Both the position numbers and the translations under genes were made by a program. Of a stretch of DNA of 34,002 nt, positions 6,060-30,608 are shown piece after piece (the first letter of the stretch is position 1; each line of letters starts with the position of its first letter). Source of the stretch: an uncultured Brachyspira sp. (GTDB lineage: Bacteria > Spirochaetota > Brachyspiria > Brachyspirales > Brachyspiraceae); the NCBI GenBank assembly GCA_949300355.1, contig CASGDY010000027.1:1-34002 (forward strand), given 5' to 3'. The notes below the pieces were generated by a model, which ran no database searches, had not been told where the DNA came from, and worked only from the letters and a program-made list of their open reading frames with translations.

Positions 6060-7037
6060 CTAATTTTTTATTTTGACTATCATCATAGGCTCTATTACTT
6101 TATCTGATTTATTTTCTAGTACAGCATAATAATCATAAATTTCTACAGCTTTAGCTGATGCTATAAAAGTTTCTTTATTTTTATAGAATCTGTATTTATA
6201 TAGCATTTCGCTTGTATACCAAACATCACCTTCTTGATTACTTCTTACGGATACATATCCTTTTTGAATATTGCTGCTAGATGTTATTTTCGGTATATTG
6301 CTCATATTATTTGTAGAATTATTTTCAGAGCTTGGAAGCTGAAGAACTTTATCTACTTTATATATATTAAATTCATCTCCTATCTTTATATCATTATTTT
6401 TACCAAGATTTATGTATAATTTATTATCTTCTGCTCTAGTTACTATACCTATCAATGGAAGATTTCCTAAATATTTTGTTATACTATCTGCTATTTTACT
6501 TAATGCTGCTGCCGATGCTGCTCCTAATGCTGTTTCTGTAAAGAGAGCATCTTCTGCTGAATATACAGGGCTATTATTAGGTAGTGTGTAAGTTCCTGTA
6601 TCCTTAAAAGATTTTACAGTTTTTAAGGATTTTATATCTATAAGATTTACTTTGAACTCAACATTAGCTGTATCTTTACCGCCCTTTTTTAAATTAAAAT
6701 TTAATATTTCACCTGTGATAATATAATCAGAATTAAATGTTTCTTTTATAAAATCGGATGCTAACTGCAAATTGGTCTGCATACTTTTATATGATGCTAC
6801 AATGTCATAAGAACTAAAATATGATATTAACAAATCATAATCTGTAACATTAATCATTTTTTTATTTATAAGGGAATCTTCTAATACCCTTGCAATTCCA
6901 TCATCAGCTTTATACTCTTCTACCCAAGTTTCATCTGCACTTTCAAAAGGCAGTATTGTTATAGTTATAGAGTATGCATTAATACTAAAGAGCAGTATTG
7001 TCATTAATAATATAAAGTTATTTTTTAAAAAAAGCAT
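6060..7037 (-). CDS. CsgG/FlgT-like exported protein
   Basis: The 325 residues begin with a signal peptide (about 1-22, ending ...SINAYS). Next comes a domain with ITILPFESADETWVEEY, GIARVLEDSLI, NVTDYDLLISYF and SDYIITGEILNF, the pattern of the CsgG/LpoB/FlgT N-terminal fold. The C-terminal part (about 195-325) has GIVTRAEDNKLYINLGKNND followed by IKIGDEFNIYKV, like the small barrel at the end of FlgT-type proteins. Such proteins act in the periplasm or at the outer membrane in assembly of surface structures. It follows a tiny lipoprotein by 4 bp and precedes the propeller-like gene, so all three form one operon. Confidence 0.6.
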   Translation of the reverse strand: MLFLKNNFILLMTILLFSINAYSITITILPFESADETWVEEYKADDGIARVLEDSLINKKMINVTDYDLLISYFSSYDIVASYKSMQTNLQLASDFIKETFNSDYIITGEILNFNLKKGGKDTANVEFKVNLIDIKSLKTVKSFKDTGTYTLPNNSPVYSAEDALFTETALGAASAAALSKIADSITKYLGNLPLIGIVTRAEDNKLYINLGKNNDIKIGDEFNIYKVDKVLQLPSSENNSTNNMSNIPKITSSSNIQKGYVSVRSNQEGDVWYTSEMLYKYRFYKNKETFIASAKAVEIYDYYAVLENKSDKVIEPMMIVKIKN

Positions 7038-22889: not shown

Positions 22890-23978
22890 TCAAATCTCTA
22901 TTGCCTCAATGGTTGTACACCAAGATTCAGCATCTGGATTTCGGCTTTGTCCTTTATGCCATATTTGTATGATTTGATATTCTCCTTTAAACATTTTATT
23001 TACTCTATTTAAAGGATTATATCCTAAATCGCCATTACCATAGAACATTTGATTTATACTTACAAAACTTTCTAATTCTAATGTTATTTTTTGAAGTACC
23101 TTAAATTTTGAAGTCATAGGAACATTAAAAGATATAGTTTTTAATCCAGTCATTTGAGGCTGTCCTATTAAGTTTCTATCTCTTATAATAGTAGGTGGTT
23201 TACTTACAATGTTTGGACTTTCTCCAATATATATTATATTACCTTCTTTATAAAGGATTTCATTAAATGTTTTTTTTACAAATGCCGCAAGACTTATTCC
23301 TTTTTTTGAACTAGGTCTAAAAATACCATTTATATTTATAGGATTTATATTGCTTTCAGCTAATTCTAAACTGTCTTTACTTGACTTTCCTATGTCTGCC
23401 CTTAAACTTAATCCTTCTTTATTAATTATATCTTGTAAAAATTTTCTTACTGCTGGACGCCATTTTTCTCCATGCTTTATATTAGGCATAACTAAGTCTT
23501 TTATTTCTTCATTAAAAGATTCTCCAGCAAGATTTAATCTTAAAATAGTATTTACTCCGTCCATATCAGGGTAGGAATTTTTTACATAACCTTGATATAT
23601 AGGTCTTAGAATTATATCATTATCATTCATAGCATAACAACTATCTTTTGGGTCTATAAGTCCCTGCCTATAATGTATAGGAGAGGCTTTTGTTCCAGCA
23701 TATAAAACTATTTTAGCATTATTGATTATTTTCTGAGCATTTTCATTATGCCAATATCTATTGACATTATATAAGGATATTGTGGCAGTATCAAACACTT
23801 CTTTTTCTTCATTATTAACTAACTGTTGTATATCGAATTCAATATGTATATTATCAATAGTTTTTGACCTATCCATATTTTGTTCTAATATAATTTTTTT
23901 TCCTGAATAAAATCCTTTAGGGGGTTCAGTAGTGTCAAATTCTTTTTTATCTAATAAAACAAATCTGTATGCTCTCAT
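22890..23978 (-). CDS. Phage baseplate-hub-like protein, copy 2
   Basis: The 362 residues are clearly homologous to the 367-residue protein at 24962-26065. Shared blocks are the MRAYR start, SLYNVNRYWHNEN, IVLYAG with PIHYRQGL, PIYQGYV..SYPDMDG, EGNIIYIGESPNI and the closing W-C-TTIEA. The N-terminal part (framework around 60-150: a NVNRYW strand, an AG..PIHY loop, then Y.GYV) is like gp27/gpD-type hub proteins that sit under a contractile tail tube; that role is inferred. It has its own 29-bp promoter-like motif 47-75 bp upstream, separate from the main tail operon. Two diverged hubs in one block suggest duplication or cassette exchange. Confidence 0.65.
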   Translation of the reverse strand: MRAYRFVLLDKKEFDTTEPPKGFYSGKKIILEQNMDRSKTIDNIHIEFDIQQLVNNEEKEVFDTATISLYNVNRYWHNENAQKIINNAKIVLYAGTKASPIHYRQGLIDPKDSCYAMNDNDIILRPIYQGYVKNSYPDMDGVNTILRLNLAGESFNEEIKDLVMPNIKHGEKWRPAVRKFLQDIINKEGLSLRADIGKSSKDSLELAESNINPININGIFRPSSKKGISLAAFVKKTFNEILYKEGNIIYIGESPNIVSKPPTIIRDRNLIGQPQMTGLKTISFNVPMTSKFKVLQKITLELESFVSINQMFYGNGDLGYNPLNRVNKMFKGEYQIIQIWHKGQSRNPDAESWCTTIEAIEI

Positions 23979-24024
23979 ATTTTAATTTTTTAATTCCTTG
24001 ACTTTATTATAAAAGCAAAGAAAT

Positions 24025-24053
24025 AAAAAAGATTTATACGATAGTTAGTTTAT
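24025..24053 (-). promoter_or_regulatory. Late-promoter-like motif, copy 2
   Basis: ATAAACTAACTATCGTATAA then ATC and a T run, between the terminator of the RHH gene and the hub copy 2 start. TATCCAAAACA upstream is partly shared with copy 1. Confidence 0.55.
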
Positions 24054-24070
24054 TATTGTTTTGGATATAA

Positions 24071-24103
24071 AAAAAGCCGACATCATTTTAATGACATCGG
24101 CTT
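24071..24103 (-). terminator. Terminator of the small-peptide/RHH operon
   Basis: On the minus strand AAGCCGAT...TCGGCTT pair (24103-24097 with 24080-24074), with an inner TCATT/AATGA stem and a T7 tail. Confidence 0.85.
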
Positions 24104-24110
24104 GTAGTTT

Positions 24111-24314
24111 TTATTTTGTGCTTTCTATTTTATTTATTATCATTTTCTTCAAATATTGGCTAATAGTTTGATTTTCACTTTCGGCAATATTTTCTAATTT
24201 ATCATATAGCTCGTTTTCTAACCTTACATAAACTACTTTTGATATTGGTTTGGCTTTATTTTCAGGGGCAATTTTTTTTCGTCCTGCCCCTTCTCTTGCT
24301 CCGCCTCTTGCCAC
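24111..24314 (-). CDS. Ribbon-helix-helix-type DNA-binding protein
   Basis: A 67-residue protein with a basic Gly/Arg/Ala-rich start (ARGGAREGAGRKK), common in small phage and plasmid proteins. An RHH-like unit follows: the strand SKVVYVRLENELYDKLENIA and the helix SENQTISQYLKKMIINKIE. RHH proteins bind DNA as dimers and often repress their own operon or act as antitoxins; neither is shown here. Translation starts at GTG with AAAGGA 7 nt upstream, and that site is shared with the stop of the 32-residue peptide gene, so the two are coupled. It ends at a strong terminator. Confidence 0.7.
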   Translation of the reverse strand: MARGGAREGAGRKKIAPENKAKPISKVVYVRLENELYDKLENIAESENQTISQYLKKMIINKIESTK

Positions 24315-24318
24315 AGTA

Positions 24319-24417
24319 TTATCCTTTAATGATAGAAGCTACTGATAAAATTATTACAGATAAAGATAATATAATAAAACTAGCAAATCTTATATTTTCA
24401 ATTATTTTGTTATTCAT
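24319..24417 (-). CDS. 32-residue membrane peptide
   Basis: MNNKIIENIRFASFIILSLS followed by VIILSVASIIKG: a charged start and one hydrophobic helix (about 10-30). The ribosome site GGAGGT lies 7 nt before the ATG, among the strongest here, and the stop overlaps the site of the RHH gene, both of which argue for a real gene. The -35 box of an opposing promoter (24421) overlaps its ribosome site. Possible second toxic or anti-holin-like peptide; unknown. Confidence 0.65.
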   Translation of the reverse strand: MNNKIIENIRFASFIILSLSVIILSVASIIKG

Positions 24418-24420
24418 ATA

Positions 24421-24448
24421 TTGACCTCCATTTTATATATGTTATAAT
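24421..24448 (+). promoter_or_regulatory. Promoter of the antisense RNA
   Basis: TTGACC at 24421-24426 and TATAAT at 24443-24448, spacer 16, on the strand opposite the peptide genes. Expected start about 24455. Confidence 0.6.
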
Positions 24449-24454
24449 TTTTTT

Positions 24455-24587
24455 ATAGGGGCAGGATGGCCGTCCCACCCCCATTTTTTGTTTGAATTAC
24501 TGTTTAAGTAAAGCTACTAAAGCAGTAATTAAGCTAGCAATCGCTATGATAAGTTCGGTCAAAGCTTTAATCATAGCGATTTTTTCT
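24455..24587 (+). ncRNA. Candidate antisense RNA (type I antitoxin-like)
   Basis: It starts from the promoter at 24421. A GC-rich hairpin follows at once (GGGGCAGGATGGCC pairs with TCCCACCCCC, 24457-24481) with a T6 tract. A 12-bp perfect hairpin comes later (AATCGCTATGAT at 24539-24550, complement 24570-24581) with a T tract. The second end gives about 130 nt, complementary to most of the 34-residue peptide gene (24497-24601). Early termination at the first T tract would give a ~35-nt RNA instead. Confidence 0.5.
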
Positions 24588-24601
24588 TGCCGTTTCTTCA
24601 T
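24497..24601 (-). CDS. 34-residue hydrophobic peptide (candidate type I toxin)
   Basis: It encodes MKKRQEKIAMIKALTELIIA and then IASLITALVALLKQ: a short basic start, a helix of about 20 Leu/Ile/Ala residues and a Lys-Gln end. That is the build of small membrane-damaging peptides of type I toxin-antitoxin systems or holin-like peptides. AGGAGG lies 8 nt upstream of the ATG and a consensus promoter 33 bp above. Codons include CGG, ACC, GCG and AGC, richer in G/C than neighbours, which hints at transfer. A perfect 12-bp inverted repeat lies within the gene and serves as terminator for an RNA on the other strand. Confidence 0.7.
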   Translation of the reverse strand: MKKRQEKIAMIKALTELIIAIASLITALVALLKQ

Positions 24602-24633
24602 TGTTTTGCCTCCTCTCATTTATTTATAATATA

Positions 24634-24661
24634 ATTATACCATAATTGAAAAAATTGTCAA
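24634..24661 (-). promoter_or_regulatory. Consensus promoter of the small-peptide operon
   Basis: On the minus strand TTGACA (24661-24656) and TATAAT (24639-24634), spacer 16. Transcription should start near 24627. Confidence 0.8.
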
Positions 24662-24760
24662 TACTAAAATCAATAAAAAATAGACAATTTATATAACAAT
24701 GTCTAAAAAAATAAATAATCCGCCTATAATTCATAACTTCACATAAAAAAGTCGCAAATG

Positions 24761-24858
24761 CCTCATATAAGAGGTTTAAAAAACAAAAAAATGTATAACT
24801 TTTTTAAACATACTCTTTATGTTAAAATAATAATATATAATTTATTAAGGAACTTTTA
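24761..24858 (+). repeat. Leader/promoter repeat, copy 2
   Basis: Homologous to 22092-22204: AAAAAAATGTATAA, the T-rich block, TATGTTAAAAT and TTTATTAAGGA. Here it precedes only a short frame, so the original gene may have been lost. Confidence 0.55.
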
Positions 24859-24990
24859 ATGTATATAGAAAATACCATAGGTCATTCACTAAAAGAAAAT
24901 ACACTTATTGTATTATACATATTATTAAGATTCAATCAAAAAAATAACAAATCTAAATTGATTATAAAATCTTTACTGCTTCCAAAATAG
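24859..24990 (+). CDS. 43-residue frame after the repeated leader, possible gene remnant
   Basis: It starts at ATG with AAGGA 7 nt upstream and encodes MYIENTIGHSLKENTLIVLY then ILLRFNQKNNKSKLIIKSLL. Its 3' end overlaps the end of the convergent hub gene. The leader is the same as that of the exported-protein gene at 22205, but the proteins share nothing. It may be a small real protein or what remains after the phage module joined here. Confidence 0.35.
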   Translation: MYIENTIGHSLKENTLIVLYILLRFNQKNNKSKLIIKSLLLPK

Positions 24991-26065
24991 TACACCAAGC
25001 ATTTACATCAGTATTCCTGCTTTGTAGAACATATCTAATAGTAGTTATTTGATAAGTTCCTTCATACATTTTGCCTATTCTCTCGGCAGTAATTCCAAAT
25101 CCAGCAGGATCTCCTTCTGTTACAAATGCTTGTCCGTAGCTTATAAAACTTTCTAATTCTAATTTTATTTTTTGAAGTATTCTAAACTTGGAAGTTAAAG
25201 GAACTGTAAGCGTTATGGTATTTGGATTGATTAATTGAGGCTGCCCCAATAAATCTTTATCACTTATAACATTAACTTTATTTGCTATAATTGGACTTTC
25301 GCCTATGTATATAACATTTCCTTCTTTTTTTATTACTTCTTTAAATGTATTTTTTACATAATCTGCTAAAGTAGTTCCATTTCTTTTAGTTTCAAATATT
25401 CCTTCTATATCTATTGAATTAACCTTAGCTTCAGATATTATTAAACTTCCTTTTGTAGGAGTTCCAATTTCAACCTTAACGTCAGGCGTTCCAACTAATA
25501 ATAAATAATTTTCTATAAATCTTTTTACTTCATTTCTCCACGCTACACCTGCGGCAATATTCAGCTGATTAACAGAGGCTTTTTCTTCTTCTGTCAATTC
25601 TTTTGTTGGAATTAAGTTTAAAACAAGAACTGTATCGGCTCCGTCCATATTCGCATAACTATTTGCCACATAACCGTCATAAATAGGGGTTGTTGTTATA
25701 TGACTGTCATTTAAAGCATAACAAGTATTTTTAGGATCTGCTAACCCCTGATGATAATGTATAGGTGTTGCTTTTACTCCGGCATAAATTACAATTCTAG
25801 CTCCTGCCAATTTGCCTGCGGAGTTTTCATTATGCCAATATCTATTGACATTATAAAGAGAAAGCACTGCCATATCATATATTGATTTATTACTTGTATC
25901 GCAATAAGAAACGCATTCAAACTCAATATGAACATTGTCGCCCATATTGCCGAGGTTCTGCTGTAAGGTTAGCTCTGTCGGCGGTTGGAAGTTAGGCTGT
26001 TTGCTTTTATCTATGCCTATGCTCACGCCTGTTTTTGATGTTAGTTCTATTCTGTATGCTCTCAT
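24962..26065 (-). CDS. Phage baseplate-hub-like protein, copy 1
   Basis: The 367 residues begin MRAYRIELTSKTGVSIGIDK. The region around 60-165 (LSLYNVNRYWHNEN, ARIVIYAG, PIHYHQGLADPKN, PIYDGYVANSYANMDGAD) resembles the first domains of gp27/gpD-like hub proteins of contractile tails. The C-terminal part (LTSKFRILQKIKLELESFIS, EGTYQITTIRYVLQSRNTDV, WCTILEA) is shared with copy 2. It follows the methyltransferase. AGGAG lies on that gene's stop codon, but a 57-nt hairpin separates it from this ATG. In a tail operon the hub normally follows tape measure and plug genes; here it follows the methyltransferase insertion. Confidence 0.68.
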   Translation of the reverse strand: MRAYRIELTSKTGVSIGIDKSKQPNFQPPTELTLQQNLGNMGDNVHIEFECVSYCDTSNKSIYDMAVLSLYNVNRYWHNENSAGKLAGARIVIYAGVKATPIHYHQGLADPKNTCYALNDSHITTTPIYDGYVANSYANMDGADTVLVLNLIPTKELTEEEKASVNQLNIAAGVAWRNEVKRFIENYLLLVGTPDVKVEIGTPTKGSLIISEAKVNSIDIEGIFETKRNGTTLADYVKNTFKEVIKKEGNVIYIGESPIIANKVNVISDKDLLGQPQLINPNTITLTVPLTSKFRILQKIKLELESFISYGQAFVTEGDPAGFGITAERIGKMYEGTYQITTIRYVLQSRNTDVNAWCTILEAVKIL

Positions 26066-29192: not shown

Positions 29193-30608
29193 TTATTCTA
29201 CTGTAATGTTAGGTACTACTTGTAATATAAAACTGCCTATTGCGGCATAGCAAGAAGCACCGTTATATATTCCGTCTTTCCAATCCTGATACTGATTAGC
29301 TTTGTAAGCAGCAAAATCAACCGCAGCCCATTCTCCGCTGTTTAATATTGCGTTTGTATTTGTATCATAATCAGAACCGAAATTGTCTAAAACTCCAAAA
29401 GCTGTCATAGTATTGCTTATAGCTGCTAATTTATTTTTCACTATATTAATTCCATTTTGATTGAACTTTATAGCTTGAAGCGGATTATTTGAAGCCTGTA
29501 TCATCATAGAAGCCACATCAACAATCAATCTAAAAATAAATGTGTCTAAGGCAAAATAATATTCCCAATCTTTGCCGTCTGCCACCATTCCGCCCAAAAT
29601 AACAGTATTATTGTTTAATGAGCCTATCCAAGAACAGCCGTTGTTATTTAAAGCATTCACTAAAGAATTAGATAATCTATCCTGCGGAGTTATGCCGTAA
29701 ATAGTTTTCCACTGAAGTAAAGAAAGAGGATTGCTCACACTTAAATTATATAGATTTCCTGATTTCACTCCAACTACAGCACCGTTAGCACTTTCTCCCT
29801 TAACTGCTGAAGGATAAACTGGGGCAAAACTTTTACTTTTTATGTATAAAGCAAATGTTTCGTCTGTACTTGGGTCTGTGCCTTCAGGAAGCTCTAAAGA
29901 AAAATATTGTCCTGCTGTTGCGTCTGAATAAGATTTTACTAAAGCAATAAAATCAGTATTAGTATAAAAAGCAGTAGGACAAGCCCATTCATACACTCTT
30001 AATTCTCCGCTTGCCGCAAAATCACTTAAAACCTGAACGGCTTCAGAAACTATTTCGCTTGTTATGTTGGTCCAATATGCTGTATCTGATAAATTAGTAG
30101 GCGTCAAATCTGCGGCACTCAATGCTGTGTCTGCCTGAATACATTTATATGTTTCGCCTTGAGCATTTACATATAAACTGTCTATTTCATAATTTTTAGG
30201 GTCCGATGTTTCTTCCCAATATCCGCTGTCTGACAGTTTACTTGGTTTCAAGTCTGTTTCGCTTGCGGCAGTGTCTGCTTGTAAGCATTTGTATGCTTGA
30301 CTTCCATCCGCATAATAATCTCCTGCGGCATACTGTTTAATGTTTGGTACTGTTCTTGTTTCTAAAACATTAATTTGTCCCATAGCATTATTAGTAAAGA
30401 AAGAGTTCAAGAAACTTTCTGTATATGAACCCTCTTTTAATTCTAAATCTGCTATTTCGCTTTTGCTGATTGTTTTTAAAGTATTAGCCTCTAAATTAGT
30501 GTCTCCATAACTGACTATTCCAAAAACTCTGGTATAATCAGCAGGGACATTCACGCCTAATACTTTTACATTTACTATAACTGGTTGTAATGGATTAGGT
30601 CTGCTCAT
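29193..30608 (-). CDS. Phage tail sheath protein with two inserted carbohydrate-binding-like repeats
   Basis: The 471 residues have a sheath-like start (IVNVKVLGVNVPADYTRVFG, then IADLELKEGSYTESFLNSFF) and a C-terminal part (GCSWIGSLNNNTVILGGMVA, DGKDWEYYFALDTFIFRLIV, AIGSFILQVVPNITVE) like DUF3383-type sheaths, which contract to drive the tube through the envelope. Residues about 92-132 and 141-180 form two similar units, each with Y..GD.Y or DSLYV, a Tyr-Lys-Cys strand (AYKCLQADTA, TYKCIQADTA), a D-L-x-P turn and a final YW, as in small chitin-binding (CBM5/12-like) modules. They would project from the sheath. An unusual hairpin separates its AGGAGG from the ATG. Confidence 0.72.
   Translation of the reverse strand: MSRPNPLQPVIVNVKVLGVNVPADYTRVFGIVSYGDTNLEANTLKTISKSEIADLELKEGSYTESFLNSFFTNNAMGQINVLETRTVPNIKQYAAGDYYADGSQAYKCLQADTAASETDLKPSKLSDSGYWEETSDPKNYEIDSLYVNAQGETYKCIQADTALSAADLTPTNLSDTAYWTNITSEIVSEAVQVLSDFAASGELRVYEWACPTAFYTNTDFIALVKSYSDATAGQYFSLELPEGTDPSTDETFALYIKSKSFAPVYPSAVKGESANGAVVGVKSGNLYNLSVSNPLSLLQWKTIYGITPQDRLSNSLVNALNNNGCSWIGSLNNNTVILGGMVADGKDWEYYFALDTFIFRLIVDVASMMIQASNNPLQAIKFNQNGINIVKNKLAAISNTMTAFGVLDNFGSDYDTNTNAILNSGEWAAVDFAAYKANQYQDWKDGIYNGASCYAAIGSFILQVVPNITVE

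Follow-up and report, generated by a model that had tools for sequence, protein, structure and literature searches.

A 34,002-nucleotide contig of an uncultured Brachyspira species (GenBank assembly GCA_949300355.1, contig CASGDY010000027.1; hereafter the window) carries a compact cassette in which the gene of a 34-amino-acid hydrophobic peptide, here named pep1, is opposed by a predicted antisense RNA and followed by the genes of a second membrane peptide (pep2) and a ribbon-helix-helix (RHH) protein. We consider it likely that this accessory cassette of a Brachyspira prophage represents a new prophage-associated family of type I-like toxin-antitoxin modules that also encode a second membrane peptide and an RHH protein. 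The anatomy of the cassette, the selection on pep1 codons, the conservation of promoters and RNA structure, and the recurrence of the module were all computed. A type I candidate had originally been predicted here from the letters of the window alone; it is now supported by selection on pep1, the conserved antisense promoter and RNA structure, the folding of the mRNA in relatives, and the pattern in which pep1 decays.

Anatomy of the cassette and selection on pep1

The pep1 gene (MKKRQEKIAMIKALTELIIAIASLITALVALLKQ; 24601-24497, minus strand), the proposed toxin gene, is preceded by a Shine-Dalgarno (SD) sequence, AGGAGG (24614-24609), and by a sense promoter, TTGACA-16-TATAAT, with a TG before the -10 element (24661-24634, 12/12 match). 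A 40-amino-acid version could start at an upstream ATG, and the placement of the SD does not favor this longer form. Downstream on the same strand are pep2 (32 amino acids, MNNKIIENIRFASFIILSLSVIILSVASIIKG, 24417-24319), whose open reading frame (ORF) has its own SD (GGAGGTCAA), and a 67-amino-acid RHH protein with a GTG start and the N-terminal sequence GGAREGAGRKK (24314-24111), assigned by fold matches. The unit is closed by an intrinsic terminator with a 13-bp stem and a T-run (24103-24074), the only terminator-like site found by a scan of 23400-25800, and its total length including this terminator is 588 bp. On the plus strand, an opposing promoter, TTGACC-16-TATAAT, also with a TG before the -10 element (24421-24448, 11/12 match), has a -35 element that overlaps the complement of the pep2 SD. 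The proposed antisense RNA, a putative antitoxin of ~135 nt (24455-24591), would form hairpins at 24458-24481 and 24490-24534 and end at a terminator hairpin (24539-24580) with a perfect 12-bp stem (AATCGCTATGAT/ATCATAGCGATT) followed by TTTTTT, which lies inside the pep1 ORF.

Most of these features had been named in the original prediction, and the peptide gene with its consensus promoter and SD, the opposing promoter, the terminator within the peptide gene, the two downstream genes of the operon and the size below 600 bp all held up. The proposal that pep1 has GC-rich codons unlike those of its neighbors did not: the ORF has 33% GC, 105-nt windows of the block average 30%, and 37% of them are equally high. 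The only GC-rich part is the 5' hairpin of the plus-strand RNA (80% GC). The segment originally delimited (24319-24661) leaves out the RHH gene and the closing terminator, and the module was underestimated: both the RHH gene and the gene of the second membrane peptide recur in it, and the family extends beyond Brachyspira.

Pairwise comparison of six distinct pep1 sequences from Brachyspira revealed 108 synonymous and 39 non-synonymous differences, corresponding to a dN/dS-like per-site ratio of 0.11. Other reading frames of the same region mostly gave ratios of about 1 or more, with one exception, an antisense frame (0.27). Two further families of pep1 sequences had ratios of 0.14 and 0.27, based on few differences. 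Since synonymous changes dominate its frame, pep1 is very probably translated and under purifying selection. Variants found across loci include MEVLTFIATIIDIMTLIVIVVKLIKIKK, MVEVITLVTKVIELTTAIITLVIVIKKIK, MEAITFITAVIYLLAAIISLVNSIRK, MNIIELLTAITNLLTAIIIAVTTFKNRK and MELLILLMVIDLLTLIIILIKFKK. The pep1 gene has the features of the small (<60 amino acids) hydrophobic peptide genes of type I modules, namely its length of 34 amino acids, a hydrophobic stretch, an SD and translation as suggested by selection. Neither pep1 nor pep2 gave a match above cut-off in Pfam or NCBIfam (several sequence families searched) or in PHROGs (the window's own peptides). The search for the peptide in other genomes, originally suggested as a check, succeeded within Brachyspira, where the six sequences were found, and gave no match in IMG/VR and phage records; loci outside the genus therefore had to be sought through the RHH protein.

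Predicted antisense RNA, mRNA folding and decay of pep1

The second feature of type I modules, an antisense RNA gene on the opposite strand with its own promoter, is also present at the sequence level, with an 11/12 promoter, hairpins, a terminator and conservation of all of these. The plus-strand RNA was predicted to fold into three hairpins (-44.6 kcal/mol, z-score -4.95). Seven members share its promoter and all three hairpins (5', middle and terminator), including a divergent one (G015:C118, locus L008), in which the first hairpin is re-made in different sequence. All 12 pairs of the terminator stem are kept in 7 of 7 relatives, three of them being changed on both sides in the divergent member. 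An Rfam search of the region revealed no family near cut-off.

In a single sequence, promoters are weak evidence (a scan gave 21 matches at ≥9/12, with 15.7 expected by shuffling), and they become compelling only via conservation across relatives. We therefore scored the antisense promoter in loci chosen by the RHH gene alone, 31 of which had a scorable pep2 position. In 26 of the 31, we detected a promoter matching at ≥11/12 whose -35 element lies within 8 nt of the pep2 start (15 perfect matches, 16 distinct sequences). The background of such sites was 23 in 173,888 base-strands, and none of 303 control ORFs of at least 90 amino acids had one at the same placement.

In most relatives, the start codon of the pep1 mRNA can be hidden in a long helix between its 5' and 3' parts, formed with the stretch just before the antisense start (e.g., AUGGAAGUC/GACUUCCAU, AUGGAGGAU/AUCCUCCAU and AUGGAAGCUA/UAGCUUCCAU). 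Such burial is characteristic of the mRNAs of type I toxins. The unpaired fraction of the SD-start region is about 28-49% in most relatives (31-49% in twelve strong folders), and the sequence AAUCCU in the 5' untranslated region of relatives can also pair with the SD. In 12 of 15 Brachyspira loci, the sense RNA had z-scores of -7 to -10, and its complement mostly -4 to -6. Because the sense RNA folds so much better than its complement, selection in these relatives seems to have acted on the sense strand. The exceptions, showing no folding advantage of the sense strand, are the window's own mRNA and those of loci L167 and L170. Published descriptions of type I toxins include primary transcripts that cannot be translated, 5'-3' pairing over long distances and transient anti-SD hairpins (PMC6733600).

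In each of the 27 loci with an intact pep1, the antisense promoter matches at ≥10/12. On the other hand, seven loci keep the antisense promoter next to a broken pep1 (G002, G021a, G006, G011, G018, G019:C13 and G000:C133). One of these is the host's second copy of the module (L202; G000:C133, ~6100-6600), in which a 20-bp insertion shifts the pep1 frame and the antisense promoter matches at 12/12. The L202 copy is located on a phage contig, where it adjoins a methyltransferase-like gene. Two others, G002 and G021a, have lost both the start codon and the minus-strand promoter of pep1; in them, conservation of the DNA sets in at the predicted 3' end of the plus-strand RNA, as would be expected from the decay of a toxin with retention of its antitoxin. 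Loss of the pep1 promoter and start, with the antisense promoter retained, is seen in the relative from B. alvinipulli ATCC 51933. Loss of the frame in related elements, originally named as an argument against a toxin, does occur in some copies, but its pattern, with the toxin lost and the antisense promoter kept, is consistent with one.

Distribution and the downstream genes

Loci were collected with RHH profiles; 20 of 26 Brachyspira genomes had strong matches, at about 42 loci in total. An earlier covariance model of the plus-strand RNA had led to a second sequence family: its marginal-looking matches of 34-36 bits (G007, G015:C65, G021:C135 and G002:C12) belong to modules of the same design with a very different pep1 sequence. 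In G010 and G007, the module follows a large terminase gene and precedes an integrase gene, as in a prophage. In the window, it occupies the gap between two tandem paralogous baseplate-hub genes (22890-23978 and 24962-26065, minus strand; phrog_196) of a prophage block. Based on such contexts, the modules are prophage-associated. The nearest named relatives of the window's RHH gene are those of B. alvinipulli ATCC 51933 and uncultured Brachyspira. Elsewhere in the window, a tail-sheath-like protein (29193-30608, minus strand) contains tandem segments, GDYYADGSQAYKCLQADTA and YVNAQGETYKCIQADTA, which match the carbohydrate-binding family CBM_5_12 just at the Pfam cut-off, and it is possible that this protein is a sheath with sugar-binding inserts.

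In other families of the phylum (f19 and f49), five loci (L203, L204, L213, L215 and L221) consist of two small membrane peptide genes followed by an RHH gene and have an antisense promoter matching at 10-11/12 where pep2 begins; in three of them (L203, L213 and L215), the SD-start region is folded into a 5'-3' helix. L218, from another spirochaete family, has both peptides and no detected antisense promoter. L223 has the full set with a GTG-started pep1 (VKRKKKKLWSRADKIALLVFLLELLKFILDLVSKLSA); its genome (G160, same phylum) contains ten identical copies of the RHH gene, and both of those fetched (L223 and L230) carry this module. Most RHH matches in f19 and f49 lack detected peptides, and f19 genes without pep1 or pep2 (e.g., L205-L208, L211, L212, L216, L217, L219 and L220) were not counted as modules. 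The RHH profile also revealed one module-bearing contig in IMG/VR (L231). A family-wide DNA search was discarded, its short AT-rich matches being noise.

The pep2 gene is present in most modules and has a non-synonymous to synonymous ratio of 0.27 in its family; it is missing from the MEAITF modules (L150-L154). Tandem pairs of a small membrane peptide and an RHH gene, without pep1 and without a good antisense promoter, are found in G015 and G019 (L166, L168 and L185), indicating that the pep2-RHH pair can stand alone. AlphaFold2 modeling of the RHH protein gave a confident two-helix part, whose best fold matches in PDB were the RHH proteins PutA, Arc, CopASO, ParG and CopG; match probabilities were near 1 and E-values weak, the domain being very short. 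In Pfam, one relative scores above the cut-offs for NikA-like and DUF6290. Proteins of this family mostly have 60-75 amino acids and the basic GGAREGAGRKK N-terminus, and lack a C-terminal toxin-binding extension.

Sense promoters of relatives match at 10-12/12 about 60 bp before pep1. An inverted repeat, TTGA-N4..10-TCAA, whose TCAA lies in the promoter spacer, is present in 21 of 31 sense promoters of modules and solitary RHH genes (2.6 expected), and the window's promoter has TTGA-N8-TCAA. This repeat is a possible operator of the RHH protein, which is probably an autorepressor of the sense promoter.

Proposed mechanism, alternatives and known systems

A reasonable model is that both strands are transcribed. 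The minus-strand promoter would produce one mRNA for pep1 (the proposed membrane toxin), pep2 and the RHH protein, ending at 24074. The plus-strand promoter, located in the pep2 leader, would produce the structured antisense RNA, which would end inside the pep1 gene and is complementary to almost its whole length. Pairing of the two would either prevent pep1 from being translated or make the mRNA a substrate of RNase III, and the RHH protein would repress the sense promoter. As to pep2, it could be a second toxin, or a helper or immunity peptide. A more ambitious version of this model, whose chances we judge to be about even, is that these are phylum-wide spirochaete addiction modules of three proteins and one RNA, in which the mRNA is silenced both by the antisense RNA and by its own 5'-3' folding, the RHH protein represses the promoter via TTGA-N-TCAA, and pep2 is a second toxin or modulator. 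This would be a mixture of type I and protein-regulated toxin-antitoxin systems and the first known type I system in Spirochaetota.

Several observations weigh against a type I-like module. The SD-start region of the window's own pep1 mRNA is about 70% unpaired, making a weak case for burial of the start codon, and the two strands of the window fold about equally well. The loci are homologous, so the promoter counts are not independent; yet, spacers and surrounding sequence vary widely. For some relatives belonging to other sequence families, the antisense RNA has no clear terminator with a U-run. The antisense RNA would not pair with the pep2 start because its predicted start (24455) is upstream of the pep2 SD, ~38 nt before the ATG. 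In G002 and G021a, where the pep1 promoter and start codon are lost, it is the plus-strand RNA that has been kept, not the peptide.

The last observation is what would be expected if the plus-strand RNA were the functional product, a trans-acting small regulatory RNA with pep1 being incidental, as the conserved block in both genomes stops at the plus-strand terminator. However, the excess of synonymous changes in the pep1 frame and the better folding of the sense strand in most relatives are against this explanation, which we regard as very improbable. It is somewhat less improbable, though still doubtful, that the peptide-RHH operon is a phage regulatory unit with nothing toxic in it, and that the structured RNA is a leader controlling pep2 and the RHH gene through attenuation or translational coupling to a leader peptide. 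The RHH gene is the most constant member, pep2-RHH pairs without pep1 exist, and the pep1 mRNA is highly structured, all of which agree with such a unit; what it does not predict is that most modules have an opposing promoter which is nearly perfect and constant in position, or that pep1 has repeatedly been lost and this promoter kept.

The strongest competitor, in our opinion still unlikely, is a mixed or type II-like module: pep2 would be the toxin, the RHH protein would serve as its antitoxin or as a repressor, and pep1 with the antisense RNA would form an additional layer. RHH proteins are common as antitoxins, weak matches to RelB-antitoxin models were observed, and the pep2-RHH pairs occur alone and in tandem. 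However, the short RHH proteins with their basic N-terminus and no toxin-binding extension are not suggestive of such a role, pep2 resembles no type II toxin, and the MEAITF modules do without it. A type II module would pair an RHH antitoxin with a toxin of a known family; here, the RHH fold is present, and pep1 and pep2 match no toxin family in Pfam or NCBIfam.

Among known systems, the type I-like module proposed here can be compared with yonT/SR6/yoyJ of the Bacillus subtilis prophage SPbeta, a type I system which is also prophage-borne and has a toxin gene and a second small toxic-peptide gene on one polycistronic RNA, with an antisense RNA (SR6, ~100 nt) extending from the vicinity of the second gene into the first (PMC5848175). 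On the other hand, pep1 is shorter (34 versus 58 amino acids in YonT) and matches no toxin family model, an RHH gene follows, and the antisense RNA would run through most of the toxin ORF. It would start before the pep2 SD; the overlap with the start of the second peptide gene by which SR6 covers yoyJ, typical of yonT/SR6, is therefore not expected. The type I aapA/IsoA modules of Helicobacter pylori are likewise multi-copy, with a small hydrophobic peptide and an opposite-strand antisense RNA, and they share the start-hiding 5'-3' long-distance pairing and the anti-SD sequence in the 5' untranslated region, which we observed in relatives (PMC6733600). As described there, they have one peptide per locus, and no second peptide or RHH gene is mentioned. 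A further difference is that the module of the window has at best a weak 5'-3' helix.

The hok/sok system is similar in having a membrane peptide, an antisense RNA and an mRNA whose 3' part is folded back onto its 5' part; it differs in that Sok covers the 5' leader and hok overlaps with mok, and it is not known to include an RHH gene. The Firmicute type I systems txpA/RatA and bsrG/SR4 have similar peptides on prophages and a convergent antisense RNA overlapping the toxin gene (PMC5848175), whereas no Pfam or NCBIfam toxin model matches here.

According to a 2025 paper, type I systems were known only from Proteobacteria, Firmicutes and Tenericutes, to which it adds a candidate in Cyanobacteria, and this narrow range was blamed on discovery methods that seek relatives of known loci (PMC12390103). 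We found no report of type I systems in Brachyspira or Treponema in the titles and abstracts listed from the open-licence literature, and it seems that no such toxin-antitoxin family has been described in spirochaetes before. The present family shares no toxin sequence model with those already known; nevertheless, it is frequent and has the hallmark RNA features, so that the narrowness of type I systems becomes directly testable. It also adds a DNA-binding partner that is absent from the type I modules compared here (yonT, aapA, hok and txpA/bsrG).
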